NCBI GenBank assembly: GCA_947486785.1
Contig: CANKUU010000021.1
Coordinates: forward strand, 1-57,792
DNA: 57,792 nucleotides
Direction: 5' to 3'
DNA from: an uncultured Flavobacteriaceae bacterium
GTDB taxonomy: Bacteria; Bacteroidota; Bacteroidia; Flavobacteriales; Flavobacteriaceae
Below, one piece after another: positions 2,299 to 14,621 of the stretch. Below the pieces are notes generated by a model. The model saw only the letters and a list, made by a program, of their open reading frames with translations. It ran no database searches and was not told where the DNA came from. Each line of letters starts with the position of its first letter. The first letter of the stretch is position 1. Made by a program: the position numbers and the translations under genes.

Positions 2299-2805
2299 AT
2301 GTTTTATTTGAGTAAAAAATATTTGGAAAATAAATATCCAGGCTTGCTATTTTACCAGTTGCTAGTTGCGTTCGTTAAATTTAGTTGTTTTTTTCTGTTC
2401 GGTGCTTTGTTTGTGTTAATCTTGTCGAATGATCTTACGGCCCAACAAAATGATATTGTAGGATATTGGAAGTCATGTGATGAGGGAGATAATATGGTAG
2501 TGAGAATTGATTTAGTCGATGGAATACCAGAGGGCTATCTTGTGGGTTTTCAACGTAATGATGGCAGCTGGGAGGATAATAAGCCAAAAAAAGGAGTTAA
2601 AGTAATGTATGGTTTTAAGTATAAAGGAGATTTAAAATGGAACGGAGGTAAAATTTTTGATCCAATAGCGGACAGAGCGTATCGCGGAGTAGTAAAAATT
2701 CAAAGTAAAGACACCATTAAAGCAACCGGATATTGGGGCTTCTTGTGGGACGATATTTTGTATAAGAGAATAGGACTTGAAAAGAAAGATGAACCTAAAG
2801 GCTAA
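2299..2805 (+). CDS. DUF2147 family secreted protein
   Basis: This 168-residue protein has a hydrophobic export segment near residues 20-50 (LLVAFVKFSCFFLFGALFVL) ending near LTAQQ, then a compact domain. Seen motifs are DIVGYWKSCDEGDNMVVRI, a WNGGKIFDPIADRAYRG stretch, and GYWGFLWDDILYKRI at the end. These follow the DUF2147 pattern of a small beta-barrel fold with a conserved glycine-tryptophan start and an arginine-containing end. Function in the family is unknown. The start gives a long hydrophilic lead before the hydrophobic segment, so a later start is possible. Its 3' end overlaps or abuts the next gene, suggesting co-transcription with the outer-membrane protein. Confidence 0.65.
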   Translation: MFYLSKKYLENKYPGLLFYQLLVAFVKFSCFFLFGALFVLILSNDLTAQQNDIVGYWKSCDEGDNMVVRIDLVDGIPEGYLVGFQRNDGSWEDNKPKKGVKVMYGFKYKGDLKWNGGKIFDPIADRAYRGVVKIQSKDTIKATGYWGFLWDDILYKRIGLEKKDEPKG

Positions 2806-5311
2806 AAAAGTTAAAAAGGCAGGCCTACTTTTAGTGCTTTTTTATGTATCACTGTCTTTTGTAAATAGGCTAGAGGCGCAAGCTATCAAAGGAATTGTGC
2901 TAGATAAAGAAGACGGCAATGGAGTGCCTTTAGTAAATATATACAATAAAAGAACTTCAACAGGTGCGATTACCGATTTTGATGGCAATTATACATTAGA
3001 TCTTCAAGGAGATCGAGCAAAAAAAGATTCAATTGTTTTTAGTTGTTTAGGTTACGACACTAGAATAGTTGCGGTTAAAGATCTTAAAAAAGCATCAACT
3101 ATATATTTAGAGAAAGGAGCTGTGTCATTAAACGAAGTTGTTCTTTTTGCCGAAGGTACTTCTGATTATCAAGACTACCTGATGCAAAAAATAATTAAAA
3201 ACAAAAAGTTTAATGATCCTGGTCGAATTGGTAAATATCAATCTCTAGAAACTTCTCTTCTTTCTGTTTTTTTAGCAAATTTAGATGACGAAATTATAAG
3301 GAAAAGGAGGTTTAGAAAATCGGAAAAGGCTTTTATAAAAGATAGTGATTCTACAGTTATGATGCCGGTTTTATTTACTAAAGAAATTATTCGACATCGT
3401 ATCGACAAAAGCGATAATTTAAATGAATCTAAAATTCTAAAAATAGAACAAGAAGGTACACTTGAGCAGCTGAGCAGTCTTGTTAAAGAGACTATAAATA
3501 AAAAGATTACACAGGATATTAATTTCTATGACGATAATATCGATCTTTTGGGACGAAGTTTTCAAAGTCCAATAGGATCAAACTATAAATCTCATTATAA
3601 AATACATTTATCCGATAGTATGAATATTGATGGTGTAAAGCATTATGAGTTTTTGTATTATCCAAAAAATGAAAAGAGTGTAGCTTTTGATGGAAGCTTT
3701 TTAGTTGATTCGGAAAGTTTTGCACTTAAAAAAATAGATGCCACGTTGCCAGCTCTTGCAAATATTAATTTTATTAAAAAGTTGAATTTTGATATTGAAT
3801 ATGATAAAACAAAAGACAATGTTTGGTATGTGAAAGTGCAGAAGACGAATACCACCTTTTCTTTTCTTAGCTCTAAAAAGAAGAACGGAAGGTTTTTTTC
3901 TGTTCAAAAAAATCAAAAATACTCTAATTTTAAATTAGATTTTGATGCTACACTAGCTCTCGAAACAGAAGGATTTGCAGAAACAGCATCAGAAAATTTA
4001 GTCAATACAATTGGAACTGCTAAACTGGATTCTACTGAGATAAAGGCCTTGAGTGGAATTCGAAAATTAAAGAAAAATAATCATATTAAATTTCTAGATC
4101 GTTTTGGAGCTATGTCGCTTAACGGTTTTTATAATATGAATAAATTTGATTTAGGGCCTTATTTTGATTTTTATATAAAAAATGGTATCGAGGGTTCTCG
4201 GTTTACTTTGCCCATTCGTACTAGTGAAAAAATGTTTGACAATTTTACCGTTGGTGGTTTTTTAGGCTATGGTGCTAAAGATAAAAAGTTTAAATATGGC
4301 TTTAATTCAAAATATAAGTTTCGGTCAGATAAAAACATCATTATTTCTGCAAACTATTTTGATGATTATAATGATGTTGCAGGAAATAGGTATTTAGAAT
4401 TTGTTCGTGAAAATCCTTTTTCTAAAGGTGGTGGAAATGTGCTATCTGTTTTTAATGATCCTTCTCGCTTAAATTTTAGATTACTACGTAAAAAACATGT
4501 TGATGTGGGCTTGTCTTATGAGCCAACCGAAAATTCTAGGTATTTATTTCGCCCTTTTTACGAAAAATATCAAGACAATGAATACAATAGATTTATTCAG
4601 AATGGTACTGAGATAGATAATTATACGAGTGTAGGTGTTTTGTTTGATTATCGATATTCTAGAGCTCGTAATTACGATCAACAATTTTTCTCTAGAATTT
4701 ACTTTGGTACAACAAAACCAGTATACCATTTTACTGTAGAAGTAGGTAACAACAAAATCACAGATTTAAGTCGCGTCTCAAACAACTCAGAGTACTATGC
4801 GCGTTTGAATGTATCTATGAAAAAGAAATTTTTAATAGGTCCTGCTTTTCTAAAATTATATGCAAACGTGGGTTACTTAATTGGTAAAGTTCCTTATCCA
4901 TTATTAAATAACCCTAGTGGAAATCAAAGTATTGGCTTGGCTAGATTTAATTACAATTTGCTAAATCCGGTATCTTTTTCATCAGATACGTACACTAATT
5001 TACATTTAAGTTTCAATGGTGGAGGTTTTTTATTTAATAAAATTCCATTTATTTCAGCATTAAATCTTCGTGAATCCTTATCTTTCAAAAGTTTTTATGG
5101 TAGCCTAAGGGATGAGCATAATAGTTTTTTTAAGCTTCCAGAAGGACTTGAAGAGTTAAGAAAAGAACCTTATTTAGAGTTAGGTATTGGTGTGACCAAT
5201 ATATTTAAGGTCTTGCGGATAGAGTACGTTAGAAGATTAAACGCGGGTGGTTTTTATGATGCCATATCAAATAAAGGAGCTTTAAGGTTCCGCATAGAAG
5301 TAGGTTTTTAA
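2789..5311 (+). CDS. DUF5686 outer-membrane protein with CarboxypepD_reg-like domain
   Basis: The protein has 840 residues when the ATG at 2789 is used. I prefer this to the TTG at 2777 because it puts the signal peptide (GLLLVLFYVSLSFVNRLEA) right at the N-terminus. A carboxypeptidase-regulatory-like beta-sandwich follows at about residues 32-115 (GIVLDKEDGNGVPLVNIYNK, then TDFDGNYTL). The rest fits DUF5686, a large family of Bacteroidota outer-membrane beta-barrel proteins of unknown function, with many alternating aromatic and polar strands and a terminal phenylalanine (IEVGF). It is probably surface-located. The start lies inside the end of the DUF2147 gene, so the two form an operon. A weak palindrome (ACTGGTCT / AGACTAGT) lies downstream near 5347. 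Confidence 0.75.
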   Translation: MNLKAKKVKKAGLLLVLFYVSLSFVNRLEAQAIKGIVLDKEDGNGVPLVNIYNKRTSTGAITDFDGNYTLDLQGDRAKKDSIVFSCLGYDTRIVAVKDLKKASTIYLEKGAVSLNEVVLFAEGTSDYQDYLMQKIIKNKKFNDPGRIGKYQSLETSLLSVFLANLDDEIIRKRRFRKSEKAFIKDSDSTVMMPVLFTKEIIRHRIDKSDNLNESKILKIEQEGTLEQLSSLVKETINKKITQDINFYDDNIDLLGRSFQSPIGSNYKSHYKIHLSDSMNIDGVKHYEFLYYPKNEKSVAFDGSFLVDSESFALKKIDATLPALANINFIKKLNFDIEYDKTKDNVWYVKVQKTNTTFSFLSSKKKNGRFFSVQKNQKYSNFKLDFDATLALETEGFAETASENLVNTIGTAKLDSTEIKALSGIRKLKKNNHIKFLDRFGAMSLNGFYNMNKFDLGPYFDFYIKNGIEGSRFTLPIRTSEKMFDNFTVGGFLGYGAKDKKFKYGFNSKYKFRSDKNIIISANYFDDYNDVAGNRYLEFVRENPFSKGGGNVLSVFNDPSRLNFRLLRKKHVDVGLSYEPTENSRYLFRPFYEKYQDNEYNRFIQNGTEIDNYTSVGVLFDYRYSRARNYDQQFFSRIYFGTTKPVYHFTVEVGNNKITDLSRVSNNSEYYARLNVSMKKKFLIGPAFLKLYANVGYLIGKVPYPLLNNPSGNQSIGLARFNYNLLNPVSFSSDTYTNLHLSFNGGGFLFNKIPFISALNLRESLSFKSFYGSLRDEHNSFFKLPEGLEELRKEPYLELGIGVTNIFKVLRIEYVRRLNAGGFYDAISNKGALRFRIEVGF

Positions 5312-5441: not shown

Positions 5442-6656
5442 ATGAAATACAGTTTTATTTTAAAGAGCCAATTGACTAAGAAAATGTGTTACTTAAAGTC
5501 GAAAGGTCTGTACCCATTTTTTAAGGAAGTGAGCTCTGCACAAACCGATATTGCTTTTTTTGGAGGAAAAAAAGTGTTAATGTTCGGCTCTAACAATTAT
5601 TTGGGTTTAAATAACCATCCTAAGATAAAAAAGGCAGCACAAGATGCCATTTCTAAATACGGTACTTCTTGCACAGGTAGTAGGTTTATGAACGGAACTC
5701 TAGATCTTCATAAAGAACTTGAAGATGAATTAAAAGATTTTTTAAATCAAGAAGCCGTAATAGTTTTTCCGACAGGTTTTCAGGTGAATTCTGGTGTGAT
5801 ACCCGCTATTGCTTCAAAAGGAGATCGTATTTTCATAGATGAATTAAATCATGCTTCTATTTTTGATGGTTGTAAAATGAGTTATGCTAAGCGAATTAAA
5901 TATAAGCATAGCGATATGAAAGATTTGGCAAAGAAATTGGAATTAAGTCCGGATGATGATACCAAAAATTTAATTGTTACTGACGGTGTTTTCTCTATGG
6001 ATGGGGATATTGCCAAGCTTGATGAAATTATTAAAATTGGTAAAACCAAAAATGCTATCACTATGGTTGATTGTGCCCATGCAATTGGAGTTATTGGAAA
6101 GCATGGTTCAGGTACAGCCTCTCATTTTGGAGTTTCGAAAGAGGTAGATTTAATTGGAGGAACTTTTAGTAAGTCTTTGGCCTCTTTAGGCGGTTTTGTT
6201 GCTGGTGACGCAGATATGATTGATTATTTAAGTCACGCATCAAGATCTTTTATGTTTAGTGCAAGTTTGCCCCCGGCTTCTACAGCAAGTGCGTTAGCGG
6301 CATTAAAGATTATTAGAAATGATTCTAGTTACACAGAAAGATTGTGGGAGAATACCCACTATGCAATTGAACAAATGAGAATTCATGGTCTGGATATTGG
6401 AAATACAGAAACACCAATTATACCAATTTATATAAGAAGTAGCTTAAAGACTTTTGAGGTGGCAAAACAACTTTTTGAAAGTGGTATTTATGTAAATCCT
6501 GTGGTAGCGCCAGCGGTAAATGATTCTGATTCGTTATTACGATTTTCGTTAACTTCTTCTCATACTAAAGAGCAAATTTTATTTGCTGTAGTAGAAATAG
6601 CAAGAATTATAGAACAGGTTACAAAACAAGTAAATGGCAGCACCTATACTTATTAA
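5442..6656 (+). CDS. spt: serine palmitoyltransferase (alpha-oxoamine synthase family)
   Basis: This is a PLP enzyme of 404 residues, the usual size of bacterial serine palmitoyltransferase. It condenses L-serine with a long acyl-CoA or acyl-ACP to 3-ketosphinganine, the first step of sphingolipid synthesis. The PLP lysine is K244 in GGTFSKSLASLGG, a form closer to SPT (TFSKS) than to BioF or KBL. The cofactor-stacking histidine is H137 (ELNHASI), and D210/H213 lie in VDCAHAIG. The neighbours are a GNAT acyltransferase overlapping its 3' end by 23 bases and an NAD-dependent reductase, the arrangement expected of a ceramide pathway. An alternative is a cysteate acyltransferase for sulfonolipids (capnine), but no cysteate synthase is in the window. 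A shorter start at the methionine at residue 15 is possible. Confidence 0.85.
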   Translation: MKYSFILKSQLTKKMCYLKSKGLYPFFKEVSSAQTDIAFFGGKKVLMFGSNNYLGLNNHPKIKKAAQDAISKYGTSCTGSRFMNGTLDLHKELEDELKDFLNQEAVIVFPTGFQVNSGVIPAIASKGDRIFIDELNHASIFDGCKMSYAKRIKYKHSDMKDLAKKLELSPDDDTKNLIVTDGVFSMDGDIAKLDEIIKIGKTKNAITMVDCAHAIGVIGKHGSGTASHFGVSKEVDLIGGTFSKSLASLGGFVAGDADMIDYLSHASRSFMFSASLPPASTASALAALKIIRNDSSYTERLWENTHYAIEQMRIHGLDIGNTETPIIPIYIRSSLKTFEVAKQLFESGIYVNPVVAPAVNDSDSLLRFSLTSSHTKEQILFAVVEIARIIEQVTKQVNGSTYTY

Positions 6657-7761
6657 AAAAGTTGATACCAAAAAAGAGTTAAAAGAATTTATTAGGTTTT
6701 ATAACCGGCTGTATAAAGGTAACCCTAATTTTGCAGCACCCTTAGAATTTGATGAGTTATCAACCCTTAGTAAACATAAAAACCCATCGCACAAAACATG
6801 TGAATCTAGCTATTGGTTAGCAATACGTGATAATAAAACTATTGGGCGTATTGCAGCAATTATAAGCTCAAATGAAATAATAGTTACCGGAAAACAGATT
6901 GGTCGTTTTGGTTATTTTGACTTTATAGACGAAAACCAAGTTTCTGAGAAACTGATGCAAACAGCCGTACTATGGCTTAAAAAACAGGGAATTAAAACTA
7001 TTCATGGACCTTTCGGCTTTACCGATTTAGACAGACAGGGTGCATTGGTCAAAGGTTTTGATAGAGAAGGTACCATGGCAACTATTTATAATCATGAGTA
7101 TTATAATGACCATTTTAACAAACTAGGCTTTGAAAAAAGTACCGACTGGGTAGAATATTTGTTTGATATAAAGGATAAGCCGCCAGAAAAACTAGGTAGA
7201 ATAGCTCGCTTTTCTCGTGAAAAATTTAAAGTGAAATCATTAAAAGTTAGAACGAAAGCCGAATTAAAAAAGTACATACCAGAGATGTTTGCGCTAATCA
7301 ATAGCAGCTATTCTGACTTATATGGATACGTACCCCTTTCTCAAGAGCAAATAGAATACTATGGTAAAAACTATATCGGTTTTGTGAAAAAAGAATTGGT
7401 ACGTTTAATTATTAATGACCAAGAAAAGTTGATAGGTGTAGCCATCACAATGCCTTCTTTTACTAAGGCACTCCAAAAAGCAAATGGGAAGTTATTTCCG
7501 TTTGGTTGGTATCATATGTTAAAAGCTTTAAATAACAATAAAACTCTTGACTTGTATTTGGTAGCTATTGATGCCAATTATCAAGATAAAGGTATTACCG
7601 CCATTATAATGGATGAGCTATACCAAGCCTCTATTGCTTTTGGTATAAAACAGGTAGAAACTAATATTGAATTAGAAGATAACCATAAGGTACAGTCTAT
7701 GTGGAAACTTTTTGGAGCCGAACAACATAAACGAAGGCGTTGTTATATTAAAAATATCTAA
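6634..7761 (+). CDS. GNAT-type acyltransferase, putative bacterial ceramide synthase
   Basis: This 375-residue protein has a GNAT-like fold in both halves. The N-terminal half contains RLYKGNPNFAAPLEFDE and SYWLAIRDNKTIGRIAAI. A central GPFGFTDLDRQGALVKGF segment is followed by a C-terminal GNAT-like part with LDLYLVAIDANYQDKGITAI, ending in ELEDNHKVQSMWKLFGAEQHKR. Bacterial ceramide synthases described in Caulobacter are GNAT-type proteins that N-acylate the sphingoid base. The position straight after spt, overlapping it by 23 bases, strongly suggests the same role. Many databases would call it only an N-acetyltransferase or hypothetical protein. The reaction assignment is inferred from context plus fold. 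Confidence 0.65.
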   Translation: MAAPILIKKVDTKKELKEFIRFYNRLYKGNPNFAAPLEFDELSTLSKHKNPSHKTCESSYWLAIRDNKTIGRIAAIISSNEIIVTGKQIGRFGYFDFIDENQVSEKLMQTAVLWLKKQGIKTIHGPFGFTDLDRQGALVKGFDREGTMATIYNHEYYNDHFNKLGFEKSTDWVEYLFDIKDKPPEKLGRIARFSREKFKVKSLKVRTKAELKKYIPEMFALINSSYSDLYGYVPLSQEQIEYYGKNYIGFVKKELVRLIINDQEKLIGVAITMPSFTKALQKANGKLFPFGWYHMLKALNNNKTLDLYLVAIDANYQDKGITAIIMDELYQASIAFGIKQVETNIELEDNHKVQSMWKLFGAEQHKRRRCYIKNI

Positions 7762-7768
7762 CTTTTAA

Positions 7769-8743
7769 ATGCCTTTGCAAAACAAAAAAAACATACTAAT
7801 AACTGGAGCAACTGGTTTTATTGGAAGCTATATTGTAAAACATGCACTTGCTTTAAAATATGAAGTGTATGTTGCCGTACGAAAAACGAGTAACAGAAAA
7901 TCGTTAGAGGACTTAAATGTAAATTTTCTAATTCTTGACTTTTCTTCGGAAACTGCAATAGCTAGAACACTTACTTCAACTATAGTTTTTGATACCGTAA
8001 TACATAATGCAGGGGTAAAAACAGCATCAACCGAGGAAGCTTATAAACATAACAATGTTGATTTAACTAAAAATCTTTGTGCAGCATTACAAAAAAAAAG
8101 ACTTTTAAAAGGCTCTTTTATTTTTATCAGCAGTTTGGCTGCTCTAGGGCCTGGCGAAGAAGATAGTATGGCCTGTATTGCAGAAAATAGAGTAGCTTCT
8201 CCCTTATCTTCTTACGGAAAAAGTAAATTATTGGCAGAGAAAGAAGTTGAAAAATCTGGCTTAAAGTATACTATTATTAGACCAACCGCGGTATTTGGAA
8301 AAGGAGGTAATGATTACAAGCAATTAGTAAGTTTAGTAAAAAAAAATATAGCCATATATTTAGCGTCACCAAAGCAGTTACTATCCTTTATTCATGCCGA
8401 TGATTTGGCAAGACTTATATTTTTAGCGAATACACCAGCAGGAGTAAACCAAGTATTTAACGCTTCGGACACGCAAAATTATACCTTAGAGAAATTTTAT
8501 AAAACGGTAGAACATGCACTTGGTAAAAATATAAAAATACGTTTAAGAGTTCCTTTTTTTATAGTGGCATCAATTGCGAACTTAAATGGATTATTACAAA
8601 AAATGTGTAATATAAAAAGTCCACTAGATAGTATAGAAAAAGCAAGGGAAGTTACTGCCTTAAACTGGGCTTGCTGTACAGATAAAATTCAAAGTCAATT
8701 GCATTTTGTTGCTCAACATTCTTTAAACGAGATTATAGACTAG
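7769..8743 (+). CDS. NAD-dependent epimerase/reductase, putative ketosphinganine or ketoceramide reductase
   Basis: This is an extended short-chain dehydrogenase of 324 residues. The dinucleotide motif is GATGFIG at residues 13-19, the catalytic pair is Y149/K153 (SSYGKSK), and a serine pair lies near 121-122 (FISSLAALG). RPTAVFGKG and FIHADDLARL are typical of the NAD-dependent epimerase/dehydratase family. In known bacterial sphingolipid clusters a member of this family reduces the 3-keto group (CerR in Caulobacter), at the ketosphinganine or ketoceramide stage. It starts 7 bases after the acyltransferase and is followed 3 bases later by the LysE-type gene, so it belongs to one tight operon with spt. 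Confidence 0.7.
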   Translation: MPLQNKKNILITGATGFIGSYIVKHALALKYEVYVAVRKTSNRKSLEDLNVNFLILDFSSETAIARTLTSTIVFDTVIHNAGVKTASTEEAYKHNNVDLTKNLCAALQKKRLLKGSFIFISSLAALGPGEEDSMACIAENRVASPLSSYGKSKLLAEKEVEKSGLKYTIIRPTAVFGKGGNDYKQLVSLVKKNIAIYLASPKQLLSFIHADDLARLIFLANTPAGVNQVFNASDTQNYTLEKFYKTVEHALGKNIKIRLRVPFFIVASIANLNGLLQKMCNIKSPLDSIEKAREVTALNWACCTDKIQSQLHFVAQHSLNEIID

Positions 8744-8746
8744 TAG

Positions 8747-9490
8747 ATGAGTGAAAGTATTACTACTGTATTTATTATAGGATTGATAGCAGGATTTCTT
8801 TTTTCTATGCCGATTGCTGGCCCCATTAGTATTATGGTTGTTTATAATGCCATAAAGGGAAAATTGCGTTATTGTATTCGCTTGGCTTTGGGCGCTAGTA
8901 TTGTGGAATTTTTTTATGTCTTTATTGTCGTTTATGGCATGTCTAGTCTTTATAAGTATTACGCTAGCTATATACCTTATATCTTATATGTAGGTGCTTT
9001 GTTTTTGTTTGTTTTAGGTTTTAAAATATTACGAGAAAATTTTAGTATCGAAAATTTAAATACTAAAGAAGCTTATTCTAATAAAGGCGGTTTAAGAACA
9101 GGTATTTTACTTAATTTGTCAAACCCTACACTTTTACTAGGTTGGTTAACCTCTTCTTTTGTAGCACTTTCGTTTGCCTCATCAATTGGTTTTAATACAG
9201 GTGATTTAGATGTTTTAGTGGGAAGTAATTCAGATTTTTTTCTGAATCACGATCAAAATTCAATGGTTGTTAAAGATGAAGCTATTAATGCTAAATTTGA
9301 ACTTTCTATGGTATATGCTTTGGGTGTAGCCTTAGGTTGCTATATTTGGTTTTACATTTTAACTAAAATTATAGTTAAGTATAGAAATAAAATTAAAGTA
9401 TTTTATATAAATATGCTGACAAAGATTTTTGGCCTTTGTTTGTTATGCATTGGAATATATCTTATTTGGCAAGGTTTTATTTTACAATAA
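8747..9490 (+). CDS. LysE family membrane protein
   Basis: This is a 247-residue integral membrane protein with about six hydrophobic segments. It begins with FIIGLIAGFLFSMPIAGPIS, the conserved first helix of the LysE/RhtB family with its proline-rich PIAGP motif. A second conserved helix reads GILLNLSNPTLLLGW near residues 119-133. A hydrophilic loop at about residues 150-185 separates the two halves. LysE proteins export amino acids or small metabolites. Here the gene sits between sphingolipid and phosphonate genes with 3-base spacing to the reductase, so a role in moving a pathway intermediate, or possibly the lipid, is conceivable. The substrate cannot be read from the sequence. Confidence 0.7.
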   Translation: MSESITTVFIIGLIAGFLFSMPIAGPISIMVVYNAIKGKLRYCIRLALGASIVEFFYVFIVVYGMSSLYKYYASYIPYILYVGALFLFVLGFKILRENFSIENLNTKEAYSNKGGLRTGILLNLSNPTLLLGWLTSSFVALSFASSIGFNTGDLDVLVGSNSDFFLNHDQNSMVVKDEAINAKFELSMVYALGVALGCYIWFYILTKIIVKYRNKIKVFYINMLTKIFGLCLLCIGIYLIWQGFILQ

Positions 9491-9579
9491 AAACCATTAT
9501 AAACCATACTTGGTATAAATTGTAAGGTTTTATAAGGCCGTGGAATAATTGGATAAGTGATAAATAATTAAAATATAAA

Positions 9580-10881
9580 ATGAGTAAAACAGTCTACATA
9601 GGAATGACCGCAGATATTATGCACCCTGGTCTAATTAATATTATAGAAGAAGGTACAAAGCATGGAGAAGTAATGGTAGGTTTACTTACCGATAAGGCAA
9701 TAGCCGAGTATAAACGCCTTCCTTATTTAAGTTTTGAACAAAGAAAAATGGTGGTGGAAAATATTAAGGGAGTTACTAAAGTTGTTGCTCAGGAAGAGTG
9801 GGATTATGCTCCAAATCTCTTAAAATATAAACCTGATGTAATGCTGCATGGTGATGATTGGGTTAAAGGGGCTCAAGAAAAATACCGTAACCTAGCGTAC
9901 AAGACGATGAAAGAAATAGGTGGAGAAGTTATCGAAGTGGCTTATACTACCGGTATAAATTCTACTGACCTAGTAGAAAGCACCAAAACAATAGGCACAA
10001 CGCCTCAAGTTAGGCTAAAAGCTTTAAGAAGACTAATCAACTCAAAACCTATTGTTCGAATTTTAGAATCTCATAGTGGGCTTACAGGTTTAATTGCTGA
10101 AACAACCGTAGTTGAAAAAGGTGGTAAACGGGTTGAGTTTGATGGCATGTGGTCTAGTAGTCTTACCGACTCTACTTCTAAAGGTAAACCAGATATTGAA
10201 GCAGTACATATAACATCAAGATTGCATAGTTTAACAGATATGTTGGAGTGTACTACAAAACCTATTATTTATGACGGAGATACAGGAGGTAAAATAGAAC
10301 ATTTCGCTTTTACCGTTCGTACTTTAGAGCGTAATGGTATTTCGGCGGTAATTATCGAAGATAAAGTGGGTTTAAAAAAGAATTCGCTTTTCGGTACTTC
10401 TGTTCCTCAAACTCAAGATACTATTGAAGGCTTTTCTGATAAAATAAAATCGGGTAAACGCGCACAGATTACCGAAGATTTTATGATTATTGCTCGAATT
10501 GAAAGCCTTATTTTAGGCAAAACGGTTACCCATGCACTAGAGAGAGCCATGGCTTATATAAAAGCAGGGGCAGATGGAATTATGATTCATAGCAAAGAAA
10601 AATCTGGCGAAGATATTTTTGAGTTTGTTAACAAGTTTAGAGCTCTTGATACTACCACTCCAATAGTAGTTGTACCATCTACCTATAACCACATAACAGA
10701 AGAGGAGTTCGAAAAACTAGGTGTTAACATAGTTATTTATGCCAATCATATGTTACGGTCATCTTATCCAGCAATGCAAAATGTAGCCAAGTCTATTTTA
10801 GAAAATGGCAGATCTTTAGAGGCCGCTGATGCTTGTATGTCTATAAAAGAAATATTAGAATTAATACCAGGCACAAAATAG
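9580..10881 (+). CDS. aepX: phosphoenolpyruvate mutase with N-terminal nucleotidyltransferase-like domain
   Basis: This protein of 433 residues isomerises phosphoenolpyruvate to phosphonopyruvate, forming the C-P bond. The mutase domain covers roughly residues 145-430. Mg-binding aspartates are D232/D234 (YDGDTGG), and the PEP-mutase signature EDK...NS is E260-D261-K262 with N268-S269, the mark separating mutases from isocitrate-lyase relatives. Residues 1-135 form a cytidylyltransferase-like domain (VYIGMTADIMHPGL, then LLTDKAIAEYKR). Its nucleotide-binding HxGH is changed to H15-P-G-L18, so that domain is probably not catalytic. It follows the LysE gene after 89 bases and leads directly into the decarboxylase gene. 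Confidence 0.9.
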   Translation: MSKTVYIGMTADIMHPGLINIIEEGTKHGEVMVGLLTDKAIAEYKRLPYLSFEQRKMVVENIKGVTKVVAQEEWDYAPNLLKYKPDVMLHGDDWVKGAQEKYRNLAYKTMKEIGGEVIEVAYTTGINSTDLVESTKTIGTTPQVRLKALRRLINSKPIVRILESHSGLTGLIAETTVVEKGGKRVEFDGMWSSSLTDSTSKGKPDIEAVHITSRLHSLTDMLECTTKPIIYDGDTGGKIEHFAFTVRTLERNGISAVIIEDKVGLKKNSLFGTSVPQTQDTIEGFSDKIKSGKRAQITEDFMIIARIESLILGKTVTHALERAMAYIKAGADGIMIHSKEKSGEDIFEFVNKFRALDTTTPIVVVPSTYNHITEEEFEKLGVNIVIYANHMLRSSYPAMQNVAKSILENGRSLEAADACMSIKEILELIPGTK

Positions 10882-10889
10882 GAGTAACT

Positions 10890-12017
10890 ATGATAGATCC
10901 AAAAAAATGTTTTGATGTTTTAAAAGATAATGAAGTTGAATTTTTTACTGGTGTACCAGATTCTTCTTTAAAAAGCTTTACCTCCTATGTGACAGACAAT
11001 AGTAATAAATTTAATAATGTAATTGCTGCTAATGAAGGCACAAGCGTTGCTCTAGCAATGGGGCATCACCTTGCCACAGGTAAGGTTCCTTTTGTTTATA
11101 TGCAGAATTCAGGAATAGGAAATGCGGTAAATCCGCTTTTATCTTTGGCAGACGAGGAAGTATATAAAATTCCAATGTTACTGATGATAGGCTGGAGGGG
11201 AGAACCAGGGGTGAAAGATGAGCCCCAACACGTAAAACAGGGTGAAATTACAGTAGCATTGTTAGAGACGATGAAAATACCGTATGTTGTGTTAAGTGAA
11301 TCTGAACCTAATGCATTAAAGCAGCTTGAAGAAATAATTAAAAAGACCAAAAAAGCGTCTACACCTCATGTAATTTTAGCTAAAAGAACTTTATTTAGCC
11401 CTTATAAATTGCAAAGTAAGCTTGTTAATAGTTTTGCAATGTCGCGAGAAGAGGCTCTAAAACTTGTAGTATCTCATTTTCAAGAAGATGATATTGTAGT
11501 TTCTACCACGGGTAAACTGTCAAGAGAATTGTTCGAATTTAGAGTAAATTCGAACCAATCTCATAAAAGCGATTTTTTAACCGTAGGCGGTATGGGGCAT
11601 TGTTCTTCAATTGCATTGGGTATTGCAATATCAAAACCAGATAAAAGAATTTATTGTCTCGATGGTGATGGTGCGGTGTTAATGCATACAGGTGCAATGT
11701 CTAATATTGGAGATTTAGCACCAAAAAATTATTTTCATATCATTTTTAATAATGGAGCACATGAATCGGTAGGGGGGCAGCCAACTGTAGGTTTTGACGT
11801 AGATTTTTTAAAAGTTGCGCAGGCATTTTCATATAAAGATTATCGCAGTGTAGAAACTAAAGAGGAGCTATCAAAAACAATAGCTCAATTACAAGAAATT
11901 GATGGTCCGGTATTGCTTGAAATAAAAGTTAGAATTGATTCTAGAAAAGATTTGGGTAGACCTACCATTTCACCAGTAGATAATAAGGCTAACTTTATGA
12001 GTAATTTAAGAAGATAG
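10890..12017 (+). CDS. aepY: phosphonopyruvate decarboxylase
   Basis: This thiamine-diphosphate enzyme of 375 residues converts phosphonopyruvate to phosphonoacetaldehyde, pulling the unfavourable mutase equilibrium forward. The start chosen is ATG 10890, preceded by GGAGT 5 bases upstream. The frame extends 19 codons further upstream into aepX, but those codons look unrelated. The N-terminal half shows FFTGVPDSSLKSF and ANEGTSVALAMG, with the glutamate of the ThDP site. The C-terminal half shows the ThDP/Mg motif GDGAVLMHTGAMSNIG followed by FNNGAHESVGGQPT, characteristic of this decarboxylase. It starts 8 bases after aepX and is 7 bases from the next gene. Confidence 0.9.
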   Translation: MIDPKKCFDVLKDNEVEFFTGVPDSSLKSFTSYVTDNSNKFNNVIAANEGTSVALAMGHHLATGKVPFVYMQNSGIGNAVNPLLSLADEEVYKIPMLLMIGWRGEPGVKDEPQHVKQGEITVALLETMKIPYVVLSESEPNALKQLEEIIKKTKKASTPHVILAKRTLFSPYKLQSKLVNSFAMSREEALKLVVSHFQEDDIVVSTTGKLSRELFEFRVNSNQSHKSDFLTVGGMGHCSSIALGIAISKPDKRIYCLDGDGAVLMHTGAMSNIGDLAPKNYFHIIFNNGAHESVGGQPTVGFDVDFLKVAQAFSYKDYRSVETKEELSKTIAQLQEIDGPVLLEIKVRIDSRKDLGRPTISPVDNKANFMSNLRR

Positions 12018-12024
12018 GGTATTT

Positions 12025-13407
12025 ATGAGTAATGTAAAGGAACAATCGGTAAGGGTAATGGTAGATATGTCTGCAACTTTGATGCATTATGGGCATGTAC
12101 GTTTATTAAAAAAAGCTAAAAATTATTTTAAAGATAAAAAGGTTACTGTTGTGGTAGGTTTAACTACCGACGATGAAGTAATTAAACATAAAGGATACAG
12201 ACCTGAGATACCTTTTAAAGGTAGAAAAGAGCTTTTAGAGGCAATTGAGTATGTAGACGAAGTAGTACCCACAACTTGGAAAATTACCGAAGAAACAATT
12301 ACAAAATATAGTATTGATTTTTTAGTGCACGGTAGCGATAATTCAAATAACGTTAAGAATATAATTCAGTTTGACCGCACCGAAGGAGTCTCAAGTGAAA
12401 TGTTAAGGGTTAGAGCATTAAATTCAATAATTCAAAAACGAAATTCTTCAAAACCAATGTATACTCCTGGCCCATCAAATTTATCTTTAGATAATGTGCT
12501 TGATTTAAGAGGTGTTTTTGGTCGTGATGACCAAGAGTATGACCATATAGAAGAAACAGTTTTGAACAATATTTTAGCACTTACAGGTCATGATCATATT
12601 GTAAGAATGCAAGGTTCGGCAACTACAGCGATTGATGTGGCAACAACAAATTTTGTAGTAGGTTCGGTTTTAATAGTAGTTTCTGGCTATTACAGCAAGC
12701 GATTAATAGAAATATATAATCGAAAAAAGCATTTAATGCCTAAAACCACTATTACTATTATTGACTATTTAGAGCTAGAAGATGAGTTAAAGAAAAACCG
12801 AAAGTTTGATTGGATTTCGGCTGCTTATACAGAGACTGCAGGCGGGTTCTTAGCCGATATTCAATTATTACACAATTTAGCGAAAGCTAAAGAGGCAAAA
12901 TTATTTTTAGATGCAACGGCCTCTATTAATTTAGAAGATCATCACAATTTGGCAGACGCCTGTGCATTTAGTTCTTGCAAAGGCTTGGGTGGATTAACTG
13001 GTGCTGGTTTTATAACCTTCAAAGAAGGTTGTTTAAGTAATGAAAAACCTACCAATTTACCTTGGTCTTTAGATATAGCAACGTATCAAAATAAAATGAC
13101 TACTGGTCCTTATCATGCAATATGTTCTTTGTATACTATTTCTAAGAATTTTGAAAGGGTTAAAAATAATGTGAGAAAAAGTAAAGATATTTTTCTTAAA
13201 AAATATGCAGATAGAATTGTAAGGCCTGAAAAAGATCAAGCACAATTGTCAACTCTATTTAAAGCAACTAACCTTAAGGCAGAAAAAGGGGTGACTTATA
13301 GCCCAAGGGCGGTTACAGAGGGTAACGCTATTATTTGTCATTTAGGAGATATGTTTAGTGAACACGATGATATTGGTCAACTTTATAATAATCTAAAAAT
13401 AGATTAA
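12025..13407 (+). CDS. fusion of HxGH cytidylyltransferase and 2-aminoethylphosphonate aminotransferase-like domain
   Basis: This 460-residue protein has two domains. Residues 1-135 are a nucleotidyltransferase of the TagD / ethanolamine-phosphate cytidylyltransferase superfamily. HYGH is intact at residues 21-24 (SATLMHYGHVRLLKK), and RTEGVSSEMLR near 118-128 replaces the family's RTxGxSTT motif. Residues 145-460 are a class V aminotransferase opening with YTPGPSNLS, with D296 (LFLDATASI) and probable PLP lysine K319 (SSCKGLGGLTGAG). By context the aminotransferase makes 2-aminoethylphosphonate from phosphonoacetaldehyde and the other domain activates it with CTP to CMP-aminoethylphosphonate. 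The aminotransferase part, about 315 residues, is shorter than the usual 360 or so. The first domain differs in type from the MobA-like domain of the known fusion PntC. Confidence 0.75.
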   Translation: MSNVKEQSVRVMVDMSATLMHYGHVRLLKKAKNYFKDKKVTVVVGLTTDDEVIKHKGYRPEIPFKGRKELLEAIEYVDEVVPTTWKITEETITKYSIDFLVHGSDNSNNVKNIIQFDRTEGVSSEMLRVRALNSIIQKRNSSKPMYTPGPSNLSLDNVLDLRGVFGRDDQEYDHIEETVLNNILALTGHDHIVRMQGSATTAIDVATTNFVVGSVLIVVSGYYSKRLIEIYNRKKHLMPKTTITIIDYLELEDELKKNRKFDWISAAYTETAGGFLADIQLLHNLAKAKEAKLFLDATASINLEDHHNLADACAFSSCKGLGGLTGAGFITFKEGCLSNEKPTNLPWSLDIATYQNKMTTGPYHAICSLYTISKNFERVKNNVRKSKDIFLKKYADRIVRPEKDQAQLSTLFKATNLKAEKGVTYSPRAVTEGNAIICHLGDMFSEHDDIGQLYNNLKID

Positions 13408-13447
13408 CCTTCTAGCTACAACGAAATAATTACAACTAGTCCTTGAA

Positions 13448-14314
13448 ATGAGTTTATTAAAAGAGTATAAATCATCTTTAAAATTAATTGAAACAGAAGA
13501 AGTTGTAGAATTAGTATTTTTTAGACCCTTAGCTTTTTTATTTGTTAAGTTAATATACAATACAGGTCTTACACCAAATCAAGTTACATTCTTAGGTTTA
13601 ATTTTTGGAGTTTCAGGAGGTGTATCATTAGCATATGGCACTCCTAAATCTATGATTATTGCTGCTTTCTTATTCATTATATTTTGTGTTTTAGATTGTA
13701 GCGATGGTCAATTAGCGAGATTAAAGGGCAACGGTACGCAGTTCGGCAGAATATTCGATGGCATGGCAGATTATTTAGTTTCTATTGCCACTTATACGGG
13801 TATGATTATCGCTTATGCTGTAAATTCACTTACGCCATGGTCAAATGCTCTTTTAATTTTAATGGCGGCTTTAAGTAATATTGTACACGCCGTTCTAGTA
13901 GATTATTATCGCAATCGTTTTATAGATTACGCACGGGGTGGTAAAAGTGTCTTAAATGATGAAATGAGTAATCTACAACTTGAATATGAAGAATTAAAAA
14001 ACAAAAAAGGTAAAATATTTGAGAAAATAGTTCTTCGTATCTATTTAAAGTATTCGTCTCTTCAAAATAATTTGGTTTCTACTGCTGGTAATAAAAGTAA
14101 AATATCATCTAAAGAATATTATAAAGTAAATAAATTACAGATTCATCTTTGGACGTATTTGGGTCCAACTACACAATGGTCTTTCTTAATTATTTGCTTA
14201 TTTTTCGATAGTATACATTTCTATCTTTGGACACTTATAACCGTATTTAACATCTATGCCTTCGGCTTATTTTTTGTGCAAAAAAGTAGAAACAGACTTC
14301 TTGATCTTAATTAG
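13448..14314 (+). CDS. CDP-alcohol phosphotransferase, putative phosphonolipid head-group transferase
   Basis: This is a membrane enzyme of 288 residues with the complete CDP-alcohol phosphotransferase signature: D83, D86-G87, A90-R91, G100, D104 and D108 (DCSDGQLAR, then GRIFDGMAD). These aspartates bind two metal ions and D108 is the general base. Hydrophobic helices flank the motif, and a polar stretch of about 70 residues (roughly 160-230) interrupts the C-terminal helices. The family transfers a phospho-alcohol from a CDP/CMP donor to a lipid hydroxyl. Following directly after an aminoethylphosphonate cytidylyltransferase, its likely donor is CMP-aminoethylphosphonate. The acceptor is probably ceramide from the upstream genes, though diacylglycerol is possible. 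Confidence 0.8.
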   Translation: MSLLKEYKSSLKLIETEEVVELVFFRPLAFLFVKLIYNTGLTPNQVTFLGLIFGVSGGVSLAYGTPKSMIIAAFLFIIFCVLDCSDGQLARLKGNGTQFGRIFDGMADYLVSIATYTGMIIAYAVNSLTPWSNALLILMAALSNIVHAVLVDYYRNRFIDYARGGKSVLNDEMSNLQLEYEELKNKKGKIFEKIVLRIYLKYSSLQNNLVSTAGNKSKISSKEYYKVNKLQIHLWTYLGPTTQWSFLIICLFFDSIHFYLWTLITVFNIYAFGLFFVQKSRNRLLDLN

Positions 14315-14466
14315 TTGAAATTATATTAGTGCAACAAAAAGAAACAATTTAGAAGGGTTTTGTACTTTCTTTATGTAGTGGTGATTTCACCTTTTTTAAA
14401 TAAAGTATAAAAATTTCACAAGTATTGACTTGATTTTTATTCTTTGTTATTTGACTTGATTATAAC

Positions 14467-14493
14467 AAAAAAAGAAGCCGTCGAAAGACGGCT
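14467..14493 (-). terminator. intrinsic terminator of the small RNA
   Basis: A 7-bp GC-rich stem with a 4-nt loop is followed on the minus strand by seven U residues. Read on the plus strand it lacks a U tract, so it is unlikely to end the phosphonate operon efficiently. Confidence 0.6.
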
Positions 14494-14588
14494 CCTTTAG
14501 ATTGAAATTCGTGTCCCTCCGAATTTCACCTATTCAACGAAATTTAACGACAGATAGCGAAAGTGGCGCTATCTGTGTTTCTTATCAA
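14467..14588 (-). ncRNA. candidate small RNA of about 120 nt
   Basis: On the minus strand a promoter at 14621-14593 is followed by three tandem hairpins and a U tract. Hairpin 1 has perfect 10-bp arms at 14567-14576 and 14550-14559. Hairpin 2 has 9-bp arms at 14520-14528 and 14503-14511, with an 8-nt loop reading GAGGGACA in the RNA. The last hairpin (14493-14476, stem AGCCGUC/GACGGCU) runs into seven U residues at 14473-14467, a classic intrinsic terminator. No ORF of note lies inside. It could belong to a known flavobacterial RNA family (Flavo-1 or 6S-Flavo are the ones to test), or be new. The purine-rich loop resembles a Shine-Dalgarno sequence. Confidence 0.55.
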
Positions 14589-14592
14589 TACT

Positions 14593-14621
14593 CAAATGTA
14601 AGAAAAAACTTACTAACCAAA
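14593..14621 (-). promoter_or_regulatory. Bacteroidota-type promoter for the small RNA
   Basis: Read on the minus strand, TTTG at 14621-14618 is followed after 17 bases by TACATTTG at 14600-14593. This fits the TTTG / TAnnTTTG elements of the Bacteroidota primary sigma factor, with spacing inside the usual range. Transcription would start near 14588. Confidence 0.55.

Follow-up and report, generated by a model that had tools for sequence, protein, structure and literature searches.

A putative phosphonosphingolipid operon in an uncultured Flavobacteriaceae bacterium

Sphingolipid and phosphonate genes lie in one co-directional block in a contig of an uncultured Flavobacteriaceae bacterium (GenBank assembly GCA_947486785.1, contig CANKUU010000021.1; the whole stretch of 57,792 nucleotides analysed is called the window). 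With a probability of roughly two in three, the block at 5442-14314 is one operon for a phosphonosphingolipid, in which a 2-aminoethylphosphonate (AEP) head group, activated as CMP-AEP, would be moved to (dihydro)ceramide by a CDP-alcohol phosphotransferase. A search of genome contigs for phosphoenolpyruvate (PEP) mutase (PepM) yielded 53 PepM loci. One of these, locus L011 of Puteibacter caeruleilacunae (Prolixibacteraceae), carries the genes of the block together with the gene upstream of it, all nine in the same order and orientation.

The nine-gene unit in two families

The gene content of 5442-14314, given in an earlier note on this DNA, was confirmed by open reading frames (ORFs), Pfam and NCBIfam, the Pfam scan taking in ten window proteins. 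The successive gaps of -23, 7, 3, 89, 8, 7 and 40 bases are also as that note gave them. Its count of nine genes needs correction: eight lie within these coordinates, all on the + strand, and nine are reached only with an upstream DUF5686 gene. The unit and the element behind it are as follows.

2777..5311, + strand: DUF5686/CarbopepD_reg protein, probable first gene of the unit (Pfam PF18939, 71.2 bits, above cut-off)
5442..6656, + strand: serine palmitoyltransferase (SPT)-like alpha-oxoamine synthase (AOS), which would form 3-ketosphinganine from serine and an acyl thioester (NF047600, structure matches, marker residue)
6634..7761, + strand: GNAT-family N-acyltransferase, probable ceramide synthase (PF00583, 27.2 bits against a cut-off of 20.7)
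7769..8743, + strand: epimerase-type short-chain dehydrogenase/reductase (SDR), probable 3-keto reductase of the sphingoid chain (PF01370, 112.6 bits)
8747..9490, + strand: LysE-type membrane protein (PF01810, 66.7 bits)
9580..10881, + strand: PEP mutase (PepM) with an N-terminal cytidylyltransferase-like domain (TIGR02320, 415.2 bits, cut-off 319.55)
10890..12017, + strand: phosphonopyruvate decarboxylase (Ppd; TIGR03297, 495.1 bits, cut-off 312.5)
12025..13407, + strand: fusion of a glycerol-3-phosphate cytidylyltransferase-type domain and a class V aminotransferase (PF01467, 54.9 bits; HYGH and SCKG motifs)
13448..14314, + strand: CDP-alcohol phosphotransferase, proposed to act as a CMP-AEP:ceramide phosphotransferase
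14470..14500: GC-rich hairpin GCCGTC-GAAA-GACGGC, read by eye, a possible terminator

Protein identities between the window and Puteibacter are 39% for DUF5686, 64% for SPT, 50% for GNAT, 36% for SDR, 49% for LysE, 77% for PepM, 58% for Ppd, 65% for the fusion protein and 53% for the phosphotransferase. Since a second family has the nine genes arranged and oriented alike at such identities (36-77% for the eight genes of the block, 39% for DUF5686), their clustering is more than chance. In Puteibacter a DUF4833 gene lies additionally between SDR and LysE. Neighbouring genes of that unit are spaced by -10 to +19 bases, with 8 bases between the sphingolipid and phosphonate halves (89 in the window), and because of this tight spacing the two halves are predicted to be a single operon there. 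The earlier view of the block as one unit is thus borne out by a tight operon kept in another family. Furthermore, each of the two genomes has one SPT-grade AOS, which is the cluster copy (545.1 bits in the window and 542.9 bits in Puteibacter against NF047600, the Bacteroidota SPT family; next best 344.8 and 346.9 bits).

Enzymes of the two halves and the proposed route

The AOS at the head of the block is SPT-like. Its best match in the PDB is the SPT of Sphingobacterium multivorum (448.7 bits), versus 229.8 bits for the sulfonolipid enzyme SulA (7u7h). Lys281 has been described as the diagnostic residue of SulA (PMC9304779; papers cited by PMC number are drawn on here for parts of their text). 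In an alignment of 58 AOS proteins the corresponding position is Ala in all 39 SPT-side rows (window, Puteibacter and 37 other SPTs), Lys in 6/6 SulA-type rows, Asn in 7/7 KBL rows and Thr in 6/6 BioF rows. On the marker and the scores a sulfonolipid enzyme was rejected, in keeping with the SPT call of the earlier note, and no cysteate synthase was matched in the block by Pfam or NCBIfam.

The neighbourhoods of the 37 other SPT loci were searched by tblastn with the proteins of the unit. GNAT relatives were found near SPT in 24/37 loci and SDR relatives in 21/37, both together in 19. GNAT relatives also adjoin SulA-type AOS in sulfonolipid loci. The window GNAT pairs with that of Puteibacter (support 100/99) in a group of 12 rows, of which four come from sulfonolipid-type loci and six from SPT loci. 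The SDR shows the motifs GATGFIG and YGKSK. DUF5686 precedes SPT in Puteibacter too and has relatives near SPT in 11/37 loci, and a role in lipid export is a guess. No LysE relative was detected by tblastn in the 52 other PepM loci, five further PepM regions and the 37 other SPT loci; for the LysE-type protein, too, a function as flippase or exporter is a guess.

In the phosphonate half PepM and Ppd both score above their family cut-offs, in line with the earlier calls, and a cytidylyltransferase is present. The PepM motif EDKVGLKKNS fits the EDKX5NS of PEP mutase. HxGH is the catalytic motif of cytidylyltransferases. The N-terminal domain of PepM (PF01467; 9580-10020) has HPGL instead (MHPGL), without the second His, a feature common to the window, Puteibacter and the PepM of locus L010 (see below), and this domain may be structural rather than catalytic. 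The HYGH of the cytidylyltransferase domain in the fusion protein is intact, so that CMP transfer is more likely performed by the fusion protein than by the PepM domain. The fusion protein also has a motif (SCKG) resembling that of a pyridoxal phosphate-binding lysine, and it would form both AEP and CMP-AEP. Formation of CMP-AEP from AEP has been established for other PntC enzymes, with a role in cell-surface tailoring (PMC6697681).

The phosphotransferase has both the motif DGxxARx8Gx3Dx3D and, in a predicted structure, the CDP-alcohol phosphotransferase fold, the structure model resting on 9 sequences with a mean pLDDT (predicted local distance difference test) of 48-54 in four of five models. 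The motif was found in one of 58 PepM loci scanned, namely the SPT-linked L011; the 58 comprise the 53 loci and five further regions, two of them on the same contig, and the scan misses variants such as a protein of genome G633. Relatives at E 1e-20 or better occur in three genomes, in each within an SPT operon.

Together these assignments suggest the following route. The SPT-like enzyme would condense an amino acid, most likely serine, with an acyl thioester; the GNAT would N-acylate and the SDR reduce the 3-keto group, giving (dihydro)ceramide. PepM would convert PEP to phosphonopyruvate, which Ppd would decarboxylate. The resulting aldehyde would be transaminated by the fusion protein to AEP and coupled with CTP to CMP-AEP, from which the phosphotransferase would move the AEP group to the C1 hydroxyl of ceramide. 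The LysE-type and DUF5686 proteins may carry the finished lipid through the inner and the outer membrane. In this organism all the reactions of the route are inferred, and so are the acceptor and the lipid made in the end, the sequence in which acylation and reduction take place, and the part of the two proteins in transport; the statement of the earlier note that the gene order gives the full route has the same standing. The bacterial ceramide steps, and the debate on whether acylation precedes reduction, have been described (PMC11087976). More tentatively, and somewhat short of even odds, the unit is a transferable nine-gene operon that adds a C-P sphingoid lipid, with a base made by a deep-branching AOS and a new CMP-AEP:ceramide phosphonotransferase, to a flavobacterium already equipped for sulfonolipid.

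Objections and rival explanations

A number of observations weigh against a phosphonosphingolipid and are given here with the rival explanations. According to the earlier note, a frequent parting of the two halves among relatives would refute its inference, and taken literally this is the case: they are apart in most genomes examined. PEP mutase exceeded its cut-off in 6 of 396 Flavobacteriaceae genomes, and one of these six, the window's genome, is alone in having an SPT-type AOS as well, the other five having PepM without it (one of the six, G081, is 66% complete and has no AOS match at all). The regions around the other five PepM genes held no SPT, GNAT, LysE or phosphotransferase in the stretches searched, with one weak partial SDR match, and four of the five loci have other arrangements, without this type of fusion protein. 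SPT at E 1e-110 or better was found in 38 of 395 genomes of the class, the other 37 of which carry non-Flavobacteriaceae family labels; PepM, Ppd, fusion and LysE were detected by tblastn near none of these 37 SPT genes in the DNA stretches searched. Many of the PepM and SPT stretches are short (L187 4,281 bases, L115 5,538 bases), which bounds what 'not nearby' means. Of the earlier interpretation, which is partly supported, the single unit, the SPT-like sphingoid half, the PepM and Ppd assignments and the cytidylyltransferase stand, and ceramide as the acceptor is a proposal.

Genome G066 carries a PepM-Ppd-fusion trio (contig C54, L010 208-4036) that is 79, 68 and 71% identical to that of the window. 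No phosphotransferase adjoins it, and no SPT-type AOS was found in the assembly, which is 80% complete; two AOS fragments at contig ends match part of the model with 241 and 203 bits and, incomplete as they are, were read as non-SPT by score. Upstream of the trio 207 bases remain to the contig end, with no frame resembling LysE. Downstream lie what we take to be an rpsO-like and then a pnp-like gene. With a trio in G066 but no SPT in the assembled part of that genome, the three genes are a portable module, one whose acceptor may in some cases be something other than a sphingolipid, and this speaks against a strict tie between the halves.

The chief competing acceptor is diacylglycerol. The phosphotransferase would then make a glycerophosphonolipid, an analogue of phosphatidylethanolamine, and the sphingolipid genes would form a second module that acts on its own within the operon, with a possible later passage of AEP from the glycerolipid to ceramide, like that of phosphoinositol in Bacteroides. 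This explanation appears unlikely, even with the trio of G066 in its favour. In the predicted model the fold neighbours of known substrate are glycerolipid or inositol enzymes. Set against this, the insect enzyme that makes ceramide phosphoethanolamine is a CDP-alcohol phosphotransferase using ceramide. Some other SPT operons hold a phosphotransferase together with an inositol-phosphate synthase, a set that in Bacteroides yields the diacylglycerol lipid first: in B. thetaiotaomicron the CDP-diacylglycerol enzyme BT_1523 takes the first step, and the ceramide form further requires the AUR1-like BT_1522 (PMC9246714). No such second transferase was matched in the unit by Pfam or NCBIfam. The occurrence of the phosphotransferase within SPT operons in three genomes also speaks against diacylglycerol, if weakly, because all three members were found via SPT or PepM loci, so that the tie is biased. 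Moreover, the G633 protein, the third member, has another residue in place of the motif's last Asp, with none in register.

The operon of G633 is also of interest in itself. At L170 973-9603 it combines SPT with the phosphotransferase relative, a MobA-like nucleotidyltransferase and a 288-residue protein without a Pfam match. No PEP mutase was found within the 19 kb of this locus, which is a candidate, judged from its genes, for another CMP-activated sphingolipid head group.

A second rival places the novelty in the AOS, which would have a new specificity for another amino acid (for instance phosphonoalanine, much as capnine is built from cysteate) or for an uncommon acyl donor, and so make a novel base. 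With 545.6 bits against NF047600 the window AOS stays under the curated cut-off of 640, as does that of Puteibacter. In a tree of the 58 AOS proteins, for which a long-branch warning applies between KBL-type and SulA-type rows, the two form a clade of their own (100/98), outside and sister to the 37 other Bacteroidia SPTs (97/96). Fifteen positions are common to the two and present in at most one of the 37, where they are otherwise near-fixed; at one of them G replaces M immediately before the TFSK lysine motif. On these grounds the amino acid used may not be serine. Several of the 15 changes match residues in KBL, BioF or SulA rows and may thus be neutral or ancestral, and the SPT-like Ala at the position of Lys281, with an SPT as the closest solved structure, speaks against this rival. 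Furthermore, were phosphonoalanine the substrate, Ppd and CMP activation would be without use. A new specificity is improbable.

Equally improbable is that AEP ends up on a cell-surface glycan or leaves the cell in free form, its linkage to the sphingolipid genes being incidental. LysE-type proteins export small amines. The majority of PEP mutase clusters are believed to supply glycans or lipids (PMC6697681). Against this stand the single operon kept in two families and its CDP-alcohol phosphotransferase. In agreement with the earlier note, no glycosyltransferase family was matched in the block by Pfam or NCBIfam; for most of the other ORFs at 1-20 kb the judgement came from the ORF list only. 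A last objection to the proposed phosphonosphingolipid concerns the fusion protein, whose aminotransferase domain scores 83.3 bits against TIGR03301, far under the cut-off of 360.8.

Relation to known systems, rarity and origin

Bacteriovorax stolpii, a bacterium of another phylum, has a hydroxylated AEP head group. Its sphingolipid, which carries a phosphonate linked to C1 of the sphingoid base, is known chemically and the SPT of this organism has been studied (PMC6148460); no head-group gene set for it came up in the searches of open-licence papers. Phosphonosphingolipids also occur in marine animals (PMC9174665) and a trypanosome (PMC5648825). In the latter, Trypanosoma cruzi, PEP mutase and a ceramide pathway are present and AEP-ceramide has been detected, a neutral loss of 125 being the reported mass-spectrometric value for AEP; it is a eukaryote, and the sections of that paper drawn on name no AEP-ceramide transferase and mention no clustering (PMC5648825).

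The Pnt pathway shares with the window a PepM with EDKX5NS, Ppd, CMP-AEP and a transaminase-cytidylyltransferase fusion like PntC of T. denticola (Rice et al. 2019, PMC6697681). It differs in that the characterised PntCs are LicC-like (PF12804) whereas the window cytidylyltransferase is of PF01467, and in that the window adds a CDP-alcohol phosphotransferase and sphingolipid genes in the operon. The paper lists PF01467 domains fused to Ppm, and its main text contains neither 'ceramide' nor 'sphing-' (PMC6697681). The inositol phosphoceramide cluster BT_1522-1526 of Bacteroides likewise has dedicated head-group genes with a CDP-alcohol phosphotransferase, but its head group is inositol and it uses a CDP-diacylglycerol route and an AUR1-like enzyme, partners that are unmatched in the window unit (PMC9246714). 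Inositol phosphoceramide was rejected as the product here, with no inositol-phosphate synthase, PgpA or AUR1-like Pfam match among the ten proteins scanned.

The sulfonolipid locus (SulA, cysteate synthase; PMC9304779) also makes a sphingoid lipid with a non-phosphate head group by means of an AOS and, in this genome, a GNAT; it differs by its C-S bond and the use of cysteate. It is present as a distinct locus in the same genome. Contig C15 (L063 7405-11056) holds a GNAT, 40% identical to that of the window, a SulA-type AOS with the marker Lys and a cysteate synthase (647.9 bits, cut-off 600), and because of these three genes the genome looks equipped for sulfonolipid as well. This locus, which lies outside the window, was overlooked by the earlier note, as were the N-terminal domain of PepM and the upstream DUF5686 gene. 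If both predictions are true, the host has C-S and C-P sphingoid lipids side by side.

Among the titles and abstract openings listed from the open-licence PMC literature, neither a bacterial gene set for a phosphonosphingolipid nor an enzyme placing AEP on ceramide was found. PEP mutase and sphingolipid occurred together there for trypanosomatids only, and no paper joined cytidylyltransferase, phosphonolipid and pepM. The unit is one of known parts joined in a new way, and it suggests that different head-group modules are exchanged on a common sphingolipid core. It offers a compact, testable gene set, open to deletion or expression, for a rare bacterial lipid; laboratory E. coli makes no sphingolipids of its own (PMC9278070), and Puteibacter caeruleilacunae JC036 is a named strain in which the lipid can be sought. 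A C-P head group should resist phosphatases and would lock phosphorus in a form that needs special recycling enzymes.

The nine-gene unit is rare. At E 1e-20 the fusion protein turned up twice among 295 relatives of the window's genome, in that genome and in G066. The class (395 genomes) and the phylum (330) each gave one instance, the window's genome in both cases, and the 149 relatives of Puteibacter likewise one, Puteibacter; these samples overlap. None of the 13 other members of the genus (completeness 57-99%) has the fusion gene, and plasmids gave no copy at E 1e-10. The DNA to the right of the block, from about 14.5 or 14.9 kb, is common to all 13. The block at 2.3-14.4 kb has no match in them beyond at most 276 bases at the DNA level, at which diverged copies could escape; the short matches fall in the GNAT and SPT genes, probably to paralogues, with 44-47 bases in DUF5686.

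Rarity is an argument for transfer. Identity gives no sign of a recent one, since between the window and Puteibacter SPT (64%) is about as similar as KBL and SulA (66% each); two BioF-like proteins, which may not be orthologues, are 35% identical. The distribution may also reflect an old gene set that was lost many times. A compositional island was rejected (GC content of the block in 2-kb windows 0.30-0.36 versus 0.29-0.38 for the whole window), as was an island linked to a tRNA or tmRNA, neither gene being found in the window.

Some minor features of the window remain. A DUF2147 gene at 2299-2805 overlaps the listed DUF5686 start by 29 bases and has no counterpart before the Puteibacter operon. 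The mechanical ORF of Ppd begins at TTG 10833, and the in-frame ATG at 10890 was chosen as start. A pattern that we take to be that of Bacteroidetes-type promoters gave 3 matches, with 6.09 expected by chance; one (9319-9348) falls within the LysE gene and none in the gap before SPT or PepM. An Rfam match at 14452-14525, far below the gathering score, was taken as chance. Beside the end of the block, 14503-14614 is a repeated intergenic element, of which about 110-130 bases are matched at four places in genus member G050 (79-82%). At 909-1913 the window contains an apparent broken gene, a stretch that is 77% conserved in genus members G935 and G937.

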